Shown: positions 16,809-40,118 of the stretch, in pieces | Position numbering within the stretch: position 1 is the first letter of the stretch | Layout: each line of letters begins with the position of its first letter | Source: a bacterium | GTDB taxonomy: Bacteria > Patescibacteriota > Minisyncoccia > Sungbacterales > HO2-52-23 | Direction of reading: 5' to 3' | DNA length: 40,118 nt | Assembly: GCA_030697525.1 (NCBI GenBank) | Contig: JAUYPW010000014.1 | Location: 1 to 40,118 of the forward strand | Notes under the pieces: generated by a model | Databases searched by the model: none | Seen by the model: only the letters and a program-made list of their open reading frames with translations | What the model was told of the DNA's origin: nothing | Position numbers and translations under genes: made by a program

Positions 16809-16836
16809 AAACAGCGAGATTTCTTCGCTGTTTTTT
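16809..16836 (+). terminator. Intrinsic terminator
   Basis: ACAGCGA-GATTTCT-TCGCTGTTTTTT. Confidence 0.85.
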
Positions 16837-16914
16837 CGTTTCCTTTAAAATATAAATACGGAGGGTAGTAAAAATGGTTGCGAGGAGGATTGGGTAAGTC
16901 ATTTTTCAGAAATA

Positions 16915-17077
16915 GCGGGTCGAGGCCATACCTTGAGGAGACCATAATGAGCCGAGCGGGCAGGGTTTTTCTGCCTCCGCCAACTGGCGGAGGCAGAAAA
17001 GAGCGAGGCTATTCTTTAGAAAAATTTCTCGCTGGGGAATTTTTGCGTGTCTCCGAGAGGTGTGGCCGAGAACCCGC
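16915..17077. repeat. Structured dispersed repeat element D
   Basis: Terminal inverted arms GCGGGTCGAGGCCATACC / GGTGTGGCCGAGAACCCGC; apical 16-bp hairpin TTTTCTGCCTCCGCCA-AC-TGGCGGAGGCAGAAAA (16967-17000); long near-identity to the reverse complement of 26775-26931. Confidence 0.85.
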
Positions 17078-17123: not shown

Positions 17124-18896
17124 TTATTCCGAAGTGACTCTCAAAACTTCTTCAATCGTCGTCACCTTCTGCGCCGCGCGGATAAAACCCTCCTCCAACA
17201 TCGTAAGCATACCTTCCCCCCTCGCCCTCTTTTCAATCTCATCCGAAGTGGCATTTTTTACCACCATTTCTTTTATAGATTCTGTGACCTCCAAAACCTC
17301 ATGAATACCGATTCTTCCTTTATACCCCTCCGGACACTCGGCGGTCTTTTTCGGCCTCCCCCACTCCATGTTTTCCAAAGTCATGTTTTGATCTGTCACT
17401 TTTTCTTTTTTCAGAATTTCCAATGTTCTGTCGAAATCTAGATCCTTTTTCAAACTTCCTATTTGATCGGAGGTGAGTTTATAGGCCTCTTGTTCCGGAC
17501 AAAGCCGTCTAACCAGCCTTTGAGATATGACCGCGCTTACCGTCGAAGCAATTAGAAAGGGTTCCACTTTCATATCAATCAGGCGGGGTATGGCTCCCGC
17601 GGCGGAATTGGTATGCAAAGTGGAGAGAACCAAGTGTCCGGTGAGCGCCGCGTTTATAGCCAAAGAGGCGGTCTCATTGTCGCGTATCTCGCCCACCATA
17701 ATTATATTCGGGTCTTGGCGCAAAAGTGAGCGCAAGCCATTGGCAAAAGTAAAACCAATATCCGGCCTCACTTGAGTTTGGTTTATGCGCGGCATTCGGT
17801 ATTCAATAGGATCCTCAACCGTAGAAATATTTACTGCCGGAGTATTCAGCATCTCCAAAATTGTATAAAGCGTGGTGGTCTTTCCGGAACCTGTGGGGCC
17901 GGTGGCCAGAATTATTCCGGTAGGTCTTTTTATGGCGCGCTGGATTCTTTCCAAATTTATCCCCCAAAAACCCAACTCCTCCAAAGAAAAGCCCTTAACT
18001 GATTCTGGTAAAAGACGCATGACAACCTTTTCACCTTCGGAAGTCGGCAGAACAGAGACACGGAAAGAAATTTTATACTGCTCCGTTTCTATTTTGAAAC
18101 GTCCGTCTTGCGGCAGACGATGCTCATCTAGCTTCAAATTAGACACGACTTTGATGCGCGCCACCACACCGGTAGAGATTTGTTTGGGCAGGGTCATGGC
18201 CTCATGCAAAATGCCATCAATCCGATAACGAACTAAAACCTCTTTTTCCATAGGTTCAATATGTATATCGGATGCGCTTTGTAAAATGGCGTGGCGAATC
18301 AAAGTATCCACTATGCGGATAACTGGCAAATCCTCGGCAAGTTTTTTTAAATCTTCCGCATTTTCCTCGCCATTGCCGCCCTCCTTCACCGCATTCATTG
18401 TCTCGCCCGCCTGTCCGGCAATTACTGATTCTTTTTTTATAATATCCCCGAATTCCGCCTCCAGCGTCTTTTGGTATTGCTTGAGAACGTGCTGGATGGA
18501 TTCTGGAGTGGTCAGACGTGGCAGAACACGAAAACCATCCTTTTTACGAACAAATTCAATGGTCTGTATGTCGTCGGGATCCAACATAGCCACTTCCAAA
18601 TTTTTACCTGTTTTTCGGAAAGGTACGATATTGTGAGTCCGCGATATCGGCTCGGGGATGATTTCCAATATTTTCGGATCAATAATTTCGTGGGTTAGAT
18701 CTACAAAAGGAATACCCAATATATAAGCCTCAAGCCGTCTTATGTCCTCTTCCTTCAAAAAACCCAGATTAAGTAAAATCTCTCGGAGTTTTTTTCCGGT
18801 TTTGACAGTTTCTTCTTCGGCCTTTTTTAGCTGATCAACTTTAATTAGTCCCGAATCCAGCAAAAAAGCTTTTAATTGTCCTTCTTCAACATGCAT
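17124..18896 (-). CDS. pilB: PilB/GspE-type assembly ATPase (copy 2)
   Basis: ASDIHIEPMEKEVLVRYRIDG, GPTGSGKTTTLYTILE, IMVGEIRDNETASLAINAALTGHLVLSTLHTN. Confidence 0.93.
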   Translation of the reverse strand: MHVEEGQLKAFLLDSGLIKVDQLKKAEEETVKTGKKLREILLNLGFLKEEDIRRLEAYILGIPFVDLTHEIIDPKILEIIPEPISRTHNIVPFRKTGKNLEVAMLDPDDIQTIEFVRKKDGFRVLPRLTTPESIQHVLKQYQKTLEAEFGDIIKKESVIAGQAGETMNAVKEGGNGEENAEDLKKLAEDLPVIRIVDTLIRHAILQSASDIHIEPMEKEVLVRYRIDGILHEAMTLPKQISTGVVARIKVVSNLKLDEHRLPQDGRFKIETEQYKISFRVSVLPTSEGEKVVMRLLPESVKGFSLEELGFWGINLERIQRAIKRPTGIILATGPTGSGKTTTLYTILEMLNTPAVNISTVEDPIEYRMPRINQTQVRPDIGFTFANGLRSLLRQDPNIIMVGEIRDNETASLAINAALTGHLVLSTLHTNSAAGAIPRLIDMKVEPFLIASTVSAVISQRLVRRLCPEQEAYKLTSDQIGSLKKDLDFDRTLEILKKEKVTDQNMTLENMEWGRPKKTAECPEGYKGRIGIHEVLEVTESIKEMVVKNATSDEIEKRARGEGMLTMLEEGFIRAAQKVTTIEEVLRVTSE

Positions 18897-18905
18897 TTAA
18901 AATTA

Positions 18906-19058
18906 GTTGCGGTCGAGGCCATTGCGCTCGCAGACAATGGGAAGAGCGATTTGCTTGGTTCACCAATCTTTTGGTGAAAATCGCGACGACCCTTAGTGAG
19001 GCCGCCGCAGGAGTGGCCGAGTCGTGTCTGCGAGCGCAATGGCCGAGAAAACTGCAAC
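18906..19058. repeat. Structured dispersed repeat element F
   Basis: Outer arms CCATTGCGCTCGCAGACA / TGTCTGCGAGCGCAATGG within GTTGCGGTCGAGG...CCGAGAAAACTGCAAC; inner hairpin around TTCACCAA-tct-TTTGGTGAA. Lies between a response-regulator stop and the pilB copy 2 start. Confidence 0.8.
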
Positions 19059-19424
19059 TTACCCGAGTACTTCTCTTATTTTGTTTATTACCTCCGAAAT
19101 TTTGTAGTCTGTTTTAACCATATACGATTTTGCGCCCAAGCTCATGGCCCTTTCAATATCTTCAGCTCTTTCAAGATTAGATAGAACAAGAACCGGAATA
19201 TCTTGAGTGTCCGGATCTTTTTTAAGCTCTTCCAGAACCATAAAACCGTCCTTTTTGGGAAGAATTAGGTCAAGCAGTATCAAGTCCGGATGTCCGCTTT
19301 TGGCCATACGAAGACCCGTCTCTCCATCCAGAGCCTGAATATTTTCATATCCTGTTTCCTGCAACATCTCACTTAAAGCTTTTTGCAAAGCAGATTCATC
19401 TTCTATGAAAAGTATTTTTTTCAT
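19059..19424 (-). CDS. Response regulator (single REC domain)
   Basis: KKILFIEDESALQKALSEML...LILLDLILPKKDGF...VLVLSNLERAEDIERAMSLGAKSYMVKTDY. Confidence 0.9.
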   Translation of the reverse strand: MKKILFIEDESALQKALSEMLQETGYENIQALDGETGLRMAKSGHPDLILLDLILPKKDGFMVLEELKKDPDTQDIPVLVLSNLERAEDIERAMSLGAKSYMVKTDYKISEVINKIREVLG

Positions 19425-24773: not shown

Positions 24774-26765
24774 ATGATCTTATTTCCAATTATCACCTCG
24801 ATACTTTCTATAATATTCGCCCTTGTTTTGGTTTATTTCATAAGACGTTACCCGGCGGGACATGGTAAACAGCTTTTGATATGGCAGGCCATAAAAGACG
24901 GTTCTAAGGCATACTTGAGGAGGCAAAACCGTACGGTTGCCATTGTGGCTTTTGTGCTGACAATCTTTTTGTGGATTGTCTTTGACATTACCACTGCCGC
25001 CGGTTTCCTGGTTGGCGCCATCGCCTCCGCTTTGGCAGGGTACCTTGGCATGACCACGGCTGTAGACACCAATGTACGAACAACCGAAGCTGCCAAAAAC
25101 GGACTTTCTAGAGCCTTCAGGGTATCTTTTCTGGGAGGTTCGGTAACCGGTTTTCTGGTCGTAGGACTGGCTCTTTTGTCGGTGAGTTTGTTTTATTACA
25201 TAACGCAAGATATCAATTCACTTGTTGGACTTGCTTTCGGAAGCTCGCTTATTTCTATCTTCGCTCGTCTGGGGGGAGGTATTTTTACCAAAGGGGCAGA
25301 CGTCGGAGCAGATTTGGTGGGAAAACTTGAAGCTGGTATTCCGGAGGATGACCCAAGAAATCCAGCCGTAATAGCTGACAATGTCGGAGACAATGTTGGT
25401 GATTGCGCGGGCATGGCCGCGGATCTTTTTGAAACCTATGCGGTAACAGCCATCGCCGCCATGCTTTTGGGGTCTTTGCTTTTTCCAGGAAATCAGACTT
25501 TGATTTTGCTGCCGCTTATTATAGGCGGAGTGGCCATCATAGCTTCGGTTTTGGGCAGTTTCGTGGTGAGAATAAAAGAAAAAGCCGGATCAACAAATAT
25601 CATGGGCGGGCTTTATAAAGGACTAATAGTCTCTTCAGTGGCCACCCTTTTAATTCTCTGGCCAATTTTTGCCAGCATATTAGAAGGAAGTTTGTTTAAA
25701 TCTTATTTCCTATCTTCAGTTGTCGGCATCTTGGTAACCGCATTTATCGTCATATTCACTGAATATTACACTTCCAAAAAATTCCGCCCCGTACAGGCGA
25801 TTGCCAGATCCTCCCTCACCGGACACGGAACAAATATAATCATGGGGCTGGCTTACTCTATGGAATCAACCGCTCTTCCCATACTTGCAATTTCGGCCGG
25901 AATACTTGCCGCTTTTTTACTTGGAGGACTTTATGGTGTTGCCCTGGCGGCCATGACCATGCTTGCCATGGCGGGTATAATCGTAGCCATAGATTCGTTT
26001 GGACCTATAACCGACAATGCCGGAGGAATTGCCGAGATGTCCGGACTTTCCGAAGAAGTGCGAAATGTAACCGACCAACTGGATGCTGTAGGAAATACAA
26101 CCAAAGCCGTCACCAAAGGATACGCCATAGCCTCCGCGGGACTTGCGGCCATAGTGCTTTTTGCTTCCTATACAGAAGAGCTTAGAAACTTTGGTAAGGC
26201 TGTTGTTTTCAACATCTCTGATCCTTACGTGCTGGTCGGTCTCTTTGTGGGCGGCATGATGCCTTATCTTTTTGGCTCTATTGGCATGAGAGCTGTCGGC
26301 AAAGCCGCGCAAAGCGTGGTGGAGGAAGTGCGCCGTCAATTTAAAGAAATACCAGGGATCATGGAGGGAACAGCCCTGCCGCAATACGATAAAGCCGTAG
26401 ATATAGTCACCAAAGCGGCCATAAGACAGATGATTTTACCAGCCTTAATACCGATTGTAATTCCGATTCTGCTTGTGCTGGTTTTGGGTTCAAATGCCGC
26501 TTTGGGTCTGGGAGGACTTCTGGTGGGTTCAATAATCACCGGACTTTTTATGGCAATTTCCATGACTTCGGGAGGCGCGGCTTGGGACAATGCCAAGAAA
26601 TATATTGAGGAAGGCAACTACGGTGGCAAAAAATCTTTTGCCCATCAGGCGGCAGTTACCGGAGATACGGTTGGTGATCCGTACAAAGATACGGTAGGAC
26701 CGGCTATAAATCCTATGATAAAGATAGTCAATATTGTGGCGCTATTGATTGCGAGATTGCTTTAA
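24774..26765 (+). CDS. hppA: Membrane-bound proton-translocating pyrophosphatase, K+-independent type
   Basis: [59 protein letters not shown] (Lys signature of K+-independent enzymes). Confidence 0.95.
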
Positions 26766-26774
26766 TCTGTGCTG

Positions 26775-26931
26775 TCGCAGGTCTCGGCCACACCCCTCGG
26801 AGACACGCAAAAATTTCCCAGCGAGAAATTTTTCTCAGGATTCGCCTCGCTCGTCCCGCTATTAGCGAGACACCCTGCCCGCTCGGCTCATCATGGTCTC
26901 CTCAAGGTATGGCCGAGACCGCTATTTCCAG
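26775..26931. repeat. Structured dispersed repeat element E (inverted relative to D)
   Basis: Reverse complement shares GGCCATACCTTGAGGAGACCATRATGAGCCGAGCGGGCAGGG and AGAAAAATTTCTCGCTGGGRAATTTTTGCGTGTCTCCGAGRGGTGTGGCCGAGA with element D. Confidence 0.85.
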
Positions 26932-26945
26932 CATATTAAAACCAC

Positions 26946-27608
26946 TCATTCCGAGTGGTTTATTTCTTTTTCCAAAATAGCGCCTGATTTTACAAATTCG
27001 CCAAAACTTATCTCTATGGCGTTTTTATATGCATCGGGAGGGACGGTTATACCAGACGACAATTCTTGTTGAATTGCCGTTTGGGTGGGAATCATTTCAT
27101 AAATCGGAAACCCCCTTTCGTTCTTCCCCACCTTCAACACATATATTCTTGATCTTTCATTAAGGAGCTGGCGAGTCGGGGGAACTGTACCATACAACAC
27201 GCTTCCAAAATAACCCTCCATGGTTTCGTGCACCGCAGTTAAAAAAGCTACCTGCCAACCGCTATTAAAATTGGCAATCATTGCTCCTTTGGATTTTCTC
27301 AAGATTTCGCTTGCGTGAGGATTGAGAAAAATAAACAGGGAGCCAAGAATAGGAACCTTTTTATGCAACCAATTAAGCCGTTTGAGGCTTAGCAGTTTCG
27401 TCTCGGTTAAGAAACCTATAAGATAAAATATGCCGATGGAAAATAAAAACCCTAAAACGTGAAAATCCCTCTGCCACAGTTTCTGCCATAGATGCTCATT
27501 CCAAAAATTGTCAAACTGGGAAACAGTAAAAATTACTATCTGGATGGGTAAATATATCAGAACAACCTGTATCAGGCCTTTTAAAACCCTCCATGTGTGT
27601 TTGCTCAT
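26946..27608 (-). CDS. Membrane protein, DUF502-like
   Basis: Two TM helices then soluble domain (NSGWQVAFLTAV...PIYEMIPTQTAIQQELSSGITVPP); SD AGGAGG before the ATG at 27608. Confidence 0.55.
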   Translation of the reverse strand: MSKHTWRVLKGLIQVVLIYLPIQIVIFTVSQFDNFWNEHLWQKLWQRDFHVLGFLFSIGIFYLIGFLTETKLLSLKRLNWLHKKVPILGSLFIFLNPHASEILRKSKGAMIANFNSGWQVAFLTAVHETMEGYFGSVLYGTVPPTRQLLNERSRIYVLKVGKNERGFPIYEMIPTQTAIQQELSSGITVPPDAYKNAIEISFGEFVKSGAILEKEINHSE

Positions 27609-27643
27609 TCGCACCTCCTCTTTTCAAAAACCCGATTTTATGC

Positions 27644-35308: not shown

Positions 35309-38300
35309 TTATCTTGGCACTATTTCTTTCAGCTTAGGAACTTTGGAGATATTTACAGTAACCTGCGAAGAATCCTGCTTATTTCCGGAATAAACGCAAA
35401 CCAGAGTATAGGTGGTTTGGGTAACCCCTTCTTTATAGAAGATTGTCTTGGTTCCGCTATCTGTGCTGACCGTTCCAATACCTTGGTCAATAGAGCAGGA
35501 TTGGTATCCGGTGGTAAGCCACGAAAGAGTTGTTGACTGGCCGGGGTTAACCACTCGAGGACTGGCGTTAAAGTTCAAAATAGTTGAGGCGACTATAAGA
35601 GTGAAATCCATAGACTGACTTCCACTAGTGACGGTGATTGTATAAGAGCCAGACTTGTCACAAGATACTGTAAATGTTGAACCGCTACCCGTACGCGGAG
35701 TACAGCGATTGGGAGCATCCCAACCGTAACTTCCAGTTCCTCCTTGTACGGAGAAAGTTACCGGAGAATTGGCAGAGGATGTTTTGGTTTGAGATTGACC
35801 GGTTGCCGGCTCCACGGTTGGATAATCAACTGTAACTGAAGCTCTGGCCTCCTTGGGAGTTACCACCCCTCTTTCGGCAATAACTTTGGCGGTGTAACTG
35901 CCCTGATTTTGGTAAATGAAAGTCAAAGATTGGTTGGCCGCGGACATGCCGTCACATTTTGCTCCTGTAGAACTTGTCTGGCATGTCCCCGGAACTGGGG
36001 AAGGCAGAGTCCCGCAAGCGCCTATGGCTGTGGCTAGATTGGTGGTCGCGTTGTTGCAATTCCACCAGAAAGAATAATTTGAAGTTGTGCCCGGAGGCAT
36101 ATTTCCGGTTACGGTCGCGGTGGTGATCACGCTCAAAGGAGCGCGGCCGCTGGTTGGAGAAACACTTAAACTTATATTTAAACTCTGCGGTGTAACATTT
36201 ACGGTTTGAGAGGAAGAAGTAGATTCATTTATGCTGTTGGTGCAAGTGGCTGTGTAGGTTGTGGTTGTATTTGGAGAAACAGAAACCGAACCACTCGTTA
36301 CCCCACCAGTGCTAAAGTTAGTACCGCTGGAAGTTGTGGAATCAGCGCAAGACCAGTTTAGTGTTACCGATTCGCCTTGAATTATGTTGGCGTTGGTGGT
36401 GGTGAAAGAAGAGACGGACGGTTTGTTGGAGATGGTAACCGAAGAAGATGGGGTGCAGGTTTTAGTCTCATTTCCGGAAGTCGCGGTGACCGTGCCGTTT
36501 TTAATACCTGCCGTAGAATAAGATTTATCAACGGAATTGCAGGTGGGCTTTGGCTGTCCGGTACATTTCAATCCCTCACCGTCAGTACTAGACCAAGAGT
36601 AAGTATAGGAACCAGTTCCTTCAGAAGCGGTCGCAGACCAAGTCACGTTGTTATTTACACTAGTTGATGTTGGAGAAGCAGAACAAGTCAGACCGAGAGG
36701 ATTTTTTATAGTAATTGATACCGAACCGGACCCTCCTCCTACTGAAGGAGTGGAGCCGGTGGGAGTACATGTCCCCGTCACATTATCTGAAGAAGTCACA
36801 GTTATGGTTCCGCTTTTTGGCCCGGGAGAATTGGAATATATTTTATCAACACTTGCGGTGTTGCCGGAAAGGCCGTCTGTACCGGACCAGGAATAAGTAT
36901 AAGATCCGGAGCCGCCATTTGCGCTATCCAGTTTCCAGGTAACTGGGAAGGTGGTGGTGGTTTCTGTCGGAGAGACAGAACAAGTTAGAGTCAACCCAAC
37001 CTTTACCGTAACTTCAGATGTGGCGCTTACTCCGCTTTTTTCATTTATGCCGCTACAGGTTACCCGATATACCGCTGATCTAGTAAGATTGCCAGTGCTT
37101 TTACTGTTGGATGTTCCTGTCCAGCCGCCCACCGCATTGCCATCTTTGGTTACAGAACAAGAGGAAGCGTTGCCCGATGTCCAGCTTATGGTTGCAGAGC
37201 TGTTATAAGCCACCGGATTGACACTGGCTGAAATAGTGGCAGTCGGATCGGCCGTTGCCGTTACATTCACCGAATTACTGCACTGGCTTGTCGCACTCAA
37301 ACCTCCGGAGTAAGCCGTAACCGATGCTGTCTTGTCGCCGGTCTGTGAGTATTGCTTATTTACATTCTCACAAGAACTTAGAGGTTGCCCTGAGCAAGAT
37401 AAACTATCCGTTCCAGTCCATGAGTAAGTATAGGAACCATCTCCGCCGGAAATATAATTTACCGCCCAATTTCTAGTTTGCCCGGGATAGGCCGTAGTAC
37501 TGTCAGGATAACAAGTAACTGAAACTGCCGGATAAGAGATGGGTATGGAACTTTCCCCGTTGGGTATGGTGCAAGATAAATCAGTATAATTATTTGTCCC
37601 GGATGGATAATTACTCGCTACCCCCGAAGTAATTCTTACGGTAGCAGTTTTAGATCCGCTGGTGGAATAGGTTTTTTTCACCGAAGATTTGCTGCCGGAT
37701 AAAGTATCTGTACCTGACCAAGAATAACTGTATGCCCCTGATCCTCCGGAAACTGAACTAGTACTCCAAGTAACTGCCTCCCCTGTATTGGCCGAATCTT
37801 TGTCTGCCGAGCAGGAGCCGGTTATGGCAGGATAGTACACCTTAAGGGCGTTGCCATTTATATCCTTAGAGCAAGTTATGTTCAGGTTTTGTCCGTCAGA
37901 TGAGGTTATATCCACACTCGCAGTTTTGCTTCCAGTGCTGGCGTAAGACGTGATGCCTGACACCGGAGAACTATTGGTGGTGTTTGAGCCTGATTGGAAA
38001 CTCCACTTGTAACCATAAGGCGCTATTCCTCCAGAAAAATGAGCTGTCCATGTAACGCTATCATTGACTAAAGCTGGGTTGGGGCTGGCGTAACAGGACG
38101 GAGCACCAATAGGATTTGGGGGAATTGGAGGAGTACTTTGTACTATTGTCGGAGGATTGGTTACACTAACTGTCACGCTATCCGAGACAGATCCTCCCCC
38201 GCCGTTTGCGCAGGATAAAGTATAGGTGTAAGTGCCCACCGTAGACGAAAGAGTACCCGTAGATTCTCCTGCTGTATTGTTTAAAGATTTATCAAAAACC

Positions 38301-40118
38301 CCCCAAGCCCCGGAGGAAGCGCAGGAAGAAGCGTTGTTGGAAGTCCAAGTCAGGTTGGCTGATCCGTGGTTGAAAATAGAGACCGGCCCATGAGAATTAT
38401 TGGCTTTTATATCCACCGTAATAGGATTGTAAATCGTCACAAACTCATTCGTACTAGCGGATAATACACCGCGACTTATGGTTACCCTAGGATTATACGT
38501 TCCGGCAGAAGTGTAAGTACAAGAAAAATCTCGGCTGGTATTGCTGACTGTAGTTGTCTGAACAGGCGACCCATTTGCGCAATTAAAATTGTAAGTAATA
38601 TTTCCGGTGGCTGTTCCTCCGACTACCACCGAAGATGATGTTATTACCTGTCCCCCGGATAAGGTGTGAGAAGACGGTGAAGCGGAATGAGACATGGAAA
38701 CGTCTAGGGTGGGGGCCTGCACTGTAACGTAAGCAGTATCTACCACCGTGTCCAGACCTAAAGATGTGGTTCTGGAGCACTTGAGTTTGAAATCAAGATT
38801 CGAGGTTAATGGTCCTGCCGACACCCCCGAATTACTAAGAGAGCTATTACTAAAAGTGCTATTCTGGACAGAATAGGCCTGACCAGCTACCGTGCCAGCG
38901 GAACAAGCCCAGCTTAGAGTTACCAAAGAGTTATAGGGGGTGGTAACTGAAATAGCATCATTGACTCTTATGTAGCCGGAGGTTTGGGGTGTCTGAACGT
39001 CTACTGCCAAAATAATATTGGCTTGAGGGCCGACCAAATCAAGTTGCATATTATAGACCCCAGGTGGGGTAGCCGAAGTCACATTGACTCTCAATACTGA
39101 TGTACAAAAATTACTGCTTTGAGCTGTGCAGGTAGGATTATTTGGAATGCTAGTCCGATCAGGATTCCAGTTAAAGGTCATTCCAGCTGGAATAGCACCC
39201 AAAGGATCGTGAAAAGCATCGGCCTGTGAATTACTAACGGTCAAGATGGTTGAACCAGATTGTCCTTGGACAATGGTCACACTGGAAGGAGACAAAGAAA
39301 GACACTTGGAAGGATCTGTAGTGGTACAATTGGCCGGAAATCCGGTAACATTTAAAAGAGAGGTGGGGGTACTATCTCCACTGCATCCGCTACTGTTACA
39401 AGCTACTCCCTTTGCCCGCAGGGTATTCCTTATACCAGAAACAGTGAAAGCATACTGGGTTCCACCGTTGCTAATGACGGTATAACCGCCATCCCATGTG
39501 CTGTCGCGCTCAAATTTTAATTTATAGGAAGTGGCATCGCTGACGCTACCGAACGTAAAAGTAACCGTTCCGCCACTATCAACATTACCGCTGGATGGAG
39601 TTGAAGAAAGTATCGGCGTTGAAGGAATCGGTGGAGGAGGGCTAGATAAATTGGTCGCTATGGAGTTGCTGAAATTGCCGCATCCTCCGCTGTTGCAAGC
39701 CACCAATATCCCGTAAAGAGTTTTGGCGTCAGGATTTGTGGGAGCGCTATTACTTATAGCTATAGAACGGCTGGTAACATTTCCTATATTAACCATGCTG
39801 GTATCGGATATGCTGGAAATGACGTTGTTGTTGGCATCCTTAAATTGATATCCGAAAAGATAATAGGAGGCGTCGGGGGCCGCGCTCCAGGTATAGTTTA
39901 TGTTGCCACTATAATAAGCACTGGTAGGTCCTGATAAGGAAGGGGTGGTTGGCGCTGGGGGAGGATCGTCCGCCGGTGGTGGCGGAGGGTTGGAAATAGT
40001 TACCGAGCCGTTAGTAGTGCTCATCTTTAACCAGAAAACATAGGTAGAACCGTTCCACCACTGCAGCTCCGCGTCACCAGATACCGTATAATCCCCCGCG
40101 CTTAAATTAGAAAAGGTA
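35309..40118 (-). CDS. Giant Ig-like/PKD-repeat surface protein, 5' end beyond the window
   Basis: ORF listed to 40024, but the frame stays open to 40118 (...TFSNLSAGDYTVSGDAELQWWNGSTYVFWLKMSTTNG). Repeated SGGSGAYSYSWSGTD...GSKTATVRITS PKD-like units and NPGQSTTLSW...TTYTLVC Ig-like units. Confidence 0.9.
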   Translation of the reverse strand, partial: TFSNLSAGDYTVSGDAELQWWNGSTYVFWLKMSTTNGSVTISNPPPPPADDPPPAPTTPSLSGPTSAYYSGNINYTWSAAPDASYYLFGYQFKDANNNVISSISDTSMVNIGNVTSRSIAISNSAPTNPDAKTLYGILVACNSGGCGNFSNSIATNLSSPPPPIPSTPILSSTPSSGNVDSGGTVTFTFGSVSDATSYKLKFERDSTWDGGYTVISNGGTQYAFTVSGIRNTLRAKGVACNSSGCSGDSTPTSLLNVTGFPANCTTTDPSKCLSLSPSSVTIVQGQSGSTILTVSNSQADAFHDPLGAIPAGMTFNWNPDRTSIPNNPTCTAQSSNFCTSVLRVNVTSATPPGVYNMQLDLVGPQANIILAVDVQTPQTSGYIRVNDAISVTTPYNSLVTLSWACSAGTVAGQAYSVQNSTFSNSSLSNSGVSAGPLTSNLDFKLKCSRTTSLGLDTVVDTAYVTVQAPTLDVSMSHSASPSSHTLSGGQVITSSSVVVGGTATGNITYNFNCANGSPVQTTTVSNTSRDFSCTYTSAGTYNPRVTISRGVLSASTNEFVTIYNPITVDIKANNSHGPVSIFNHGSANLTWTSNNASSCASSGAWGVFDKSLNNTAGESTGTLSSTVGTYTYTLSCANGGGGSVSDSVTVSVTNPPTIVQSTPPIPPNPIGAPSCYASPNPALVNDSVTWTAHFSGGIAPYGYKWSFQSGSNTTNSSPVSGITSYASTGSKTASVDITSSDGQNLNITCSKDINGNALKVYYPAITGSCSADKDSANTGEAVTWSTSSVSGGSGAYSYSWSGTDTLSGSKSSVKKTYSTSGSKTATVRITSGVASNYPSGTNNYTDLSCTIPNGESSIPISYPAVSVTCYPDSTTAYPGQTRNWAVNYISGGDGSYTYSWTGTDSLSCSGQPLSSCENVNKQYSQTGDKTASVTAYSGGLSATSQCSNSVNVTATADPTATISASVNPVAYNSSATISWTSGNASSCSVTKDGNAVGGWTGTSNSKSTGNLTRSAVYRVTCSGINEKSGVSATSEVTVKVGLTLTCSVSPTETTTTFPVTWKLDSANGGSGSYTYSWSGTDGLSGNTASVDKIYSNSPGPKSGTITVTSSDNVTGTCTPTGSTPSVGGGSGSVSITIKNPLGLTCSASPTSTSVNNNVTWSATASEGTGSYTYSWSSTDGEGLKCTGQPKPTCNSVDKSYSTAGIKNGTVTATSGNETKTCTPSSSVTISNKPSVSSFTTTNANIIQGESVTLNWSCADSTTSSGTNFSTGGVTSGSVSVSPNTTTTYTATCTNSINESTSSSQTVNVTPQSLNISLSVSPTSGRAPLSVITTATVTGNMPPGTTSNYSFWWNCNNATTNLATAIGACGTLPSPVPGTCQTSSTGAKCDGMSAANQSLTFIYQNQGSYTAKVIAERGVVTPKEARASVTVDYPTVEPATGQSQTKTSSANSPVTFSVQGGTGSYGWDAPNRCTPRTGSGSTFTVSCDKSGSYTITVTSGSQSMDFTLIVASTILNFNASPRVVNPGQSTTLSWLTTGYQSCSIDQGIGTVSTDSGTKTIFYKEGVTQTTYTLVCVYSGNKQDSSQVTVNISKVPKLKEIVPR

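Follow-up and report, generated by a model that had tools for sequence, protein, structure and literature searches.

Elements D, E and F of the window (the whole 40,118-nt stretch of DNA analysed here) are members of one phylum-wide family of dispersed elements of about 145 nt, a family that is apparently undescribed so far. The evidence shows well that the family is structural, under selection, specific to one strand and spread across the phylum. Its members fold into a three-way junction, with P1 as the long outer stem, P2-P3-P4 as one arm and P5 as a hairpin. We infer, with a probability of roughly 0.45, that they are non-autonomous mobile DNA elements, similar to REP or attC, whose folded single strand is what is recognised.

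Covariation of this strength suffices to define a new structural family, and a very small, streamlined Patescibacteria genome keeps 28 copies of this complex folding element. If mobile, the element would be a structure-dependent repeat without the usual partner enzymes, hinting at a novel recombination or retro-copying activity; if RNA, it would constitute an abundant, previously undescribed non-coding RNA family. The model, the conserved motifs and the copy-rich complete genomes provide a concrete handle for direct testing.

Members in the window and distribution of the family

Elements D and E were found to be as the first-pass annotation had described them in position, in their common blocks (42 nt at 97.6% and 54 nt at 96.3% identity) and in their differing apical hairpins. 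By a repeat search of the window, these blocks were recovered as inverted pairs of 54 and 71 nt with 91-92% complementarity. The features are as follows.

16893-16926, + strand: left part, outer palindrome module (GGTAAGT..TTCAGAAATAGCGGGTCGAGGC), 34 nt, 91-100% in L001, L008 and L012
16915-17077, + strand: element D, whole fold, with outermost stem GCGGG (16915-16919)/CCCGC (17073-17077)
16924-16942, + strand: 5' arm of D P1, GGCCATACC-TTGA-GGAGAC, partner 17049-17067
16951-16957, + strand: 5' strand of D P3, GCCGAGC, partner GCGAGGC (17003-17009) via tandem G.A
16958-16966, + strand: unpaired conserved bulge of D, GGGCAGGGT, family form GC-A/T-N-GGT
16967-17000, + strand: D P4, apical variable hairpin, 96.7% of cells paired over 123 copies
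17020-17044, + strand: D P5 hairpin, AAAAATTTC-TCGCTGG-GGAATTTTT, stem varying and covarying, loop CGCNGG kept
17049-17067, + strand: 3' arm of D P1, GTCTCC-GAGA-GGTGTGGCC, partner 16924-16942
about 18905-19058 (core 18912-19051), + strand: element F, third copy
26775-26931, - strand: element E

Two covariance models were used, R1 (from 14 copies, with D and E included in the training and F not) and R2 (from 124 rows). Element D was matched at 16919-17074 by R1 (E 3.7e-33) and was also matched by R2 (E 1.7e-21), E at 26779-26919 by R1 (E 5.9e-39), and F by both R1 (E 8.9e-14) and R2 (E 3.6e-18). These matches are far from what chance would give, with all E-values being approximate due to short calibration.

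Seven full copies and additional partial matches came up in a nucleotide search of the 36-contig, 746-kb assembly. A covariance-model scan, as the first-pass annotation had proposed, identified 28 copies in this 746-kb genome at E <= 1e-4 (R2), about one per 27 kb, as well as matches in further Patescibacteria. By R1, the element was detected in 9 of the 13 genomes of the family, with up to 21 copies (21 in G009 and 17 in G012), and in 82 of 286 sampled Paceibacteria (class) genomes, with no more than 11 candidates scored in each. By R2, with strict filters and a limit of 8 scored candidates per genome, it was detected in 33 of 380 genomes sampled across the phylum, other classes included; apart from this genome, nine that were scored more fully carried up to 14 copies each. 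An exact-pattern scan of 84,980 prokaryote species matched only Parcubacteria/Sungiibacteriota MAGs, and no element match was found in phages, plasmids, E. coli or viral contigs. Comparison of the window and 20 diverse loci to Rfam 15 at the curated gathering score returned only tRNAs, and weak Rfam scans that included single elements returned unrelated families far below cut-off. A literature search of published, mostly open-access papers found no description of the element. The first-pass annotation had named, as outcomes that would speak against it, a genome-wide search yielding its own copies alone with no covariation, or a match to a described family; instead, more copies and covariation were found, with no known-family match.

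Elements were also observed at contig ends (G041 C14:1-140, G041 C2:4-139 and, in this genome, C5:89-228). Thus, short-read assemblies are probably broken by the repeats, and the genomes may carry more copies than were counted.

Fold, covariation and the folded strand

When 123 distinct copies were aligned, 93.6% of stem cells were paired and two-sided changes were present in 39 of 40 pairs. Covariation in this alignment was 0.901 compared to 0.205 for shuffled sequences and at most 0.118 when partners were slid by 1-3 columns, although the alignment was fitted to the model and its covariation therefore partly leans toward it. The size of the margin and a MAFFT alignment of 14 copies nevertheless agreed, the latter with a covariation of 0.452 compared to 0.200 and two-sided changes in 22 of 40 pairs. 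Among paralogues, compensatory changes were apparent in P1 (GGAGAC/GTCTCC to GGGGAC/GTCCCC and to GAAAAC/GTTTTC), and the NN of the P5 hairpin AAAAATTNN-TCGCTGG-NNAATTTTT were altered pair by pair. P3, which in D is closed via tandem G.A, was Watson-Crick paired in relatives (GGCCTTGC/GCAAGGCC). The first-pass annotation had envisaged a fixed scaffold with a swappable apical hairpin. That description was not supported as stated: P4 is one of several stems that vary freely while still pairing, the outer, P3 and P5 stems vary as freely as the apical one, and only short unpaired motifs are fixed. Of these motifs, the GC(A/T)NGGT bulge between P3 and P4 was present in 110 of 123 copies (27 expected in shuffled segments) and the P5 loop CGCNGG in 115 of 123 (21 expected in shuffled segments). 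Tandem G.A mispairs recurred at several positions of the fold.

Folding as RNA gave z-scores of -8.8 for D and -6.7 for E, with neither equalled by any of 200 dinucleotide shuffles, and the predicted RNA energy was lower on the element strand in 59 of 63 copies. Mispairs of the outer arms were then counted with all mismatches scored alike and hence blind to wobble; by this approach, G.T mispairs outnumbered A.C by 100 to 11 (p 4e-19), and G.A/A.G outnumbered C.T/T.C by 82 to 2. The excess of G.T over A.C mispairs shows that a single folded strand, either RNA or single-stranded DNA, is under selection. Thus, selection on structure, which the first-pass annotation had put forward, was strongly supported, with all stems covarying and the mispairs marking the strand that is folded.

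Gene setting, turnover and nesting

In the window, D lies 47 nt from a T2SSE/PilB-type ATPase gene (17124-18896, - strand), and E lies 10 nt behind an H+-pyrophosphatase gene (24774-26765, + strand), with a gene at 26946-27614 (- strand) that had no Pfam match on its other side. Both D and E are between convergent genes, as originally reported. This setting did not extend to F, the flanking genes of which are co-directional, unlike those of D and E, nor to the other loci, where only 15 of 65 and 7 of 70 had convergent flanking genes. The arms of F are perfect over 20 nt, and its outer stem reaches the stop codon of a response regulator gene (19059-19424, - strand). A terminator-like hairpin with a T-run (ACAGCGAGATTTCTTCGCTGTTTTTT) was also observed upstream of D at 16811-16840, separate from the element.

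Based on simple ORF calls, the gene at the 3' side of the element was on the opposite strand at 48 of 65 loci (p 1.5e-4), with its stop codon a median of 9 nt from the model end. A second set gave an antisense 3'-side gene at 59 of 75 loci (p 6e-7); the two sets share the G009 copies, and removal of these from the second set left 46 of 58 (p 8e-6). In most cases, then, the element sits behind a stop codon with its folded strand antisense to the gene that ends there. Elements were antisense to both flanking genes at 33 of 65 and 48 of 70 loci, and divergent flanking genes were the rarest setting. The folded strand was opposite positive GC skew at 59 of 75 loci, although gene orientation confounds this bias. 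Along the single contig of genome G003, three + strand copies come first and six - strand copies after them. Promoter-like signals were not enriched upstream of the element (26 of 93 copies compared to 30 when shuffled), which favours DNA over an RNA gene.

The first-pass annotation had also raised a mobile palindrome. This idea was partly supported, by the many dispersed copies, presence/absence within a genus, nested composites and near-identical copies inside different palindromes. In the same-genus pair G012 and G009, seven G012 copies were missing from the matching G009 spacers and one locus was common to both. Because the spacers have diverged, this comparison revealed neither a clean empty site nor a target duplication. 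At two G009 C1 spacers (L146 and L147), another dispersed inverted repeat (GTGATGCYAATCCGATGCGAATTTAATGCCAAT..) was observed where G012 carries the element.

Copies C15 and C23 share a near-identical unit of about 150 nt, but the outer stems around it, each perfectly paired, are unrelated (TTTTAGC..GCTAAAA and TTTTGGGT..ACCCAAAA). Over 93 copies, pairing outside the model was copy-specific (z 5.8 compared to exchanged partners). Composite copies, with the core of one subfamily and the arms of another, were found as units of about 220 nt repeated at unrelated sites. The module at 16893-16926 recurs elsewhere in the genome, surrounding different cores. We read the different outer palindromes and the nesting as insertion of the element at the tips of existing palindromes, with arm growth by correction a possible contributor to the palindromes. 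The insertion hot spot originally suggested was not supported as stated.

A second case of nesting was observed at about 1440-1760 of L002 (contig C19 of this genome), where the arms of another subfamily (..GTGGTATTCTGATT../..GTGTCTGAAATCAGGATACC..) are split around a D-type copy. Longer nested palindromes around unrelated cores were observed in L008 (1290-1540; C21:3355-3605 of this genome), L010 and L012. These combine the outer modules of D (TTTTCAGAAATAGCSGGT..CCCGCGACAA) with a second module (CCATTTCGCGGAAGATGACTATGACCCGC) and look like a further repeat family made from the outer parts of D.

Enzymes, known systems and rival readings

No single mobility enzyme was universal among those tested, and each was missing from some copy-rich genomes. 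Y1 transposases were common in the class (188 of 286 genomes) and unassociated with the element (55 of 82 element genomes and 133 of 204 others; Fisher p 0.78), and the RAYT link suggested by the first-pass annotation was not found; Y1 was not detected in G009, with its 21 copies, or in G004. None of 14 element genomes had a TnpB match above cut-off; a single sub-threshold match was seen in G342. Among ten element genomes, rve was found in one and a tyrosine recombinase of any subtype in eight (one per genome, two in G217), with none matched in G001 and G165. Reverse transcriptases were found in 6 of 10 element genomes tested, with no RVT_1 match in the element-bearing G001, G004 and G165; those inspected appeared by motif to be mostly DGR-type, and those of G000 (this genome), G102, G217 and G122 were not next to elements. 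In G041, an element lies 316 nt before a retron-like reverse transcriptase. A retron partner was considered and rejected, as the other retron-like enzyme (G102) is 9 kb from its element, and the G041 adjacency was treated as coincidence. The two retron-like enzymes are encoded at 10705-11658 of L178 (G102 C3) and 10425-11444 of L175 (G041 C14), the latter with a catalytic YADA in place of YADD. The two DGR-type enzymes of this genome, assigned by the motifs GLPLGNLTSQ and YVRYADDF / YIRYCDDF, are at 259-1269 of L171 (C34) and 6279-7184 of L172 (C27), and an AbiP2-type defence reverse transcriptase is at 7026-8696 of L173 (G009 C8; PADLOC E 4e-190).

The element resembles the REP/REPIN and RAYT system in being a dispersed extragenic palindrome that forms strand-specific single-strand hairpins and is rarely between divergent genes. 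It differs in being a three-way junction of about 145 nt compared to a REP hairpin of 20-40 bp, in carrying a GT[AG]G foot at the hairpin base in only 7 of 123 copies at either end, in lacking Y1 association, and in having arms that are completely different between copies. With attC it shares structure that is kept rather than sequence, and a folded strand antisense to the gene and right behind its stop codon; this bottom-strand placement applied to the 48 of 65 and 59 of 75 loci above. In sedentary integrons, attC bottom strands are mostly on the leading-strand template (PMC8946536), as is the folded strand of the element, subject to the confounding by gene orientation noted above (for lagging- and leading-strand background on IS200/IS605 and attC, see PMC6006769 and PMC8946536). 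Unlike attC, the element has no attC boxes at its two ends (RYYYAAC in 0 and GTTRRRY in 1 of 123 copies, compared to 2.8 and 6.3 when shuffled), forms a three-way junction rather than a single hairpin, lies outside cassette arrays behind ordinary genes (PilB-type ATPase, H+-PPase, response regulator), and occurs in two genomes without a tyrosine-recombinase match. Miniatures of IS200/IS605 and OMEGA (TnpB/IscB) RNAs are similar in their structured single-strand ends or RNAs and in that short non-autonomous copies are possible; by contrast, Y1 and TnpB were not found in copy-rich genomes, the element has two complementary arms around one fold, and no Rfam match was obtained. Retron msr-msd RNA likewise has complementary outer arms around several hairpins, but only one of the two retron-like enzymes inspected has an element nearby and several copy-rich genomes gave no RVT_1 match. 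With regard to a classical MITE, which has conserved terminal inverted repeats and a target duplication, the arms of the element covary rather than being conserved, and the diverged spacers offered no clean empty site. Taken together, the layout works like REP or attC, and the element is a member of neither on the features tested. A likeness of one subfamily (CCCTTAGCGAG) to a retron msr, and of GGCATGGT...CTCGCTGG to the HDV ribozyme, was considered and set aside; the helix order does not match that of HDV, and Rfam returned nothing.

For a non-autonomous mobile DNA element of this type, the folded single strand would be exposed, for example, at replication or DNA entry. A recombinase or transposase supplied in trans could then bind it through the conserved bulge, the loop and the tandem G.A motifs. 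This enzyme would insert the element into the tips of palindromes already present behind stop codons, leaving the folded strand antisense to the gene upstream. We suggest, more tentatively, a new phylum-specific class of mobile element in which the folded strand of about 145 nt (single-stranded DNA, or RNA copied back to DNA) is the replication unit, inserts at DNA hairpin tips behind stop codons, and is served by an enzyme or by its own catalysis. The main rival, somewhat less likely in our view, is that the folded molecule is RNA, either a transcribed non-coding RNA, a ribozyme or a SINE-like RNA retroelement, antisense to the upstream gene. Tolerance of G.T, the tandem G.A internal loops, the conserved bulge and loop, the RNA folding z-scores and the reverse transcriptases of six element genomes are consistent with RNA. 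By contrast, promoter-like signals were not enriched before the 93 copies, and most copies are antisense to both neighbours, such that read-through would make the wrong strand. Elements are also carried by three genomes without an RVT_1 match, the enzymes inspected are by motif mostly DGR-type, and no relation to Rfam, nor a matching Rfam ribozyme, was found.

A benefit to the host, with the hairpin terminating transcription or protecting the 3' end of the upstream mRNA and the spacing under selection, would explain the short distance to the stop codon and the rarity of divergent settings. This explanation is improbable, since the strand bearing the marks of selection is antisense to that gene and spacers of the sister genome are without the element; a terminator was rejected, as neither direction shows a U-run after the hairpin in the copies inspected by eye (C15 and C23). 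A known mobile kind (REP/REPIN with RAYT, an integron attC, or an IS200/IS605- or TnpB-linked miniature) would account for extragenic, palindromic, dispersed and strand-specific copies, for the frequency of Y1 in the class and for the strand placement shared with sedentary-integron attC. It is largely refuted and very unlikely, given the lack of association between Y1 and the element, the rarity of the GT[AG]G foot, attC boxes that are below shuffled levels and the lack of a TnpB match above cut-off in any of the 14 genomes. Least likely of all are functionless inverted repeats kept complementary by template-switch correction of quasi-palindromes. Arms that are often perfectly complementary and extended copy-specifically fit such correction, which may contribute to the outermost arms; for the core it is refuted, as it would remove the one-strand G.T and G.A mispairs and leaves the unpaired motifs conserved across the phylum unexplained.

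Elsewhere in the window, an ORF of 1571 aa (35309-40024, - strand) was observed with repeated Ig-like or PKD-like segments and direct repeats at 36582-37751; its product is probably a surface protein.
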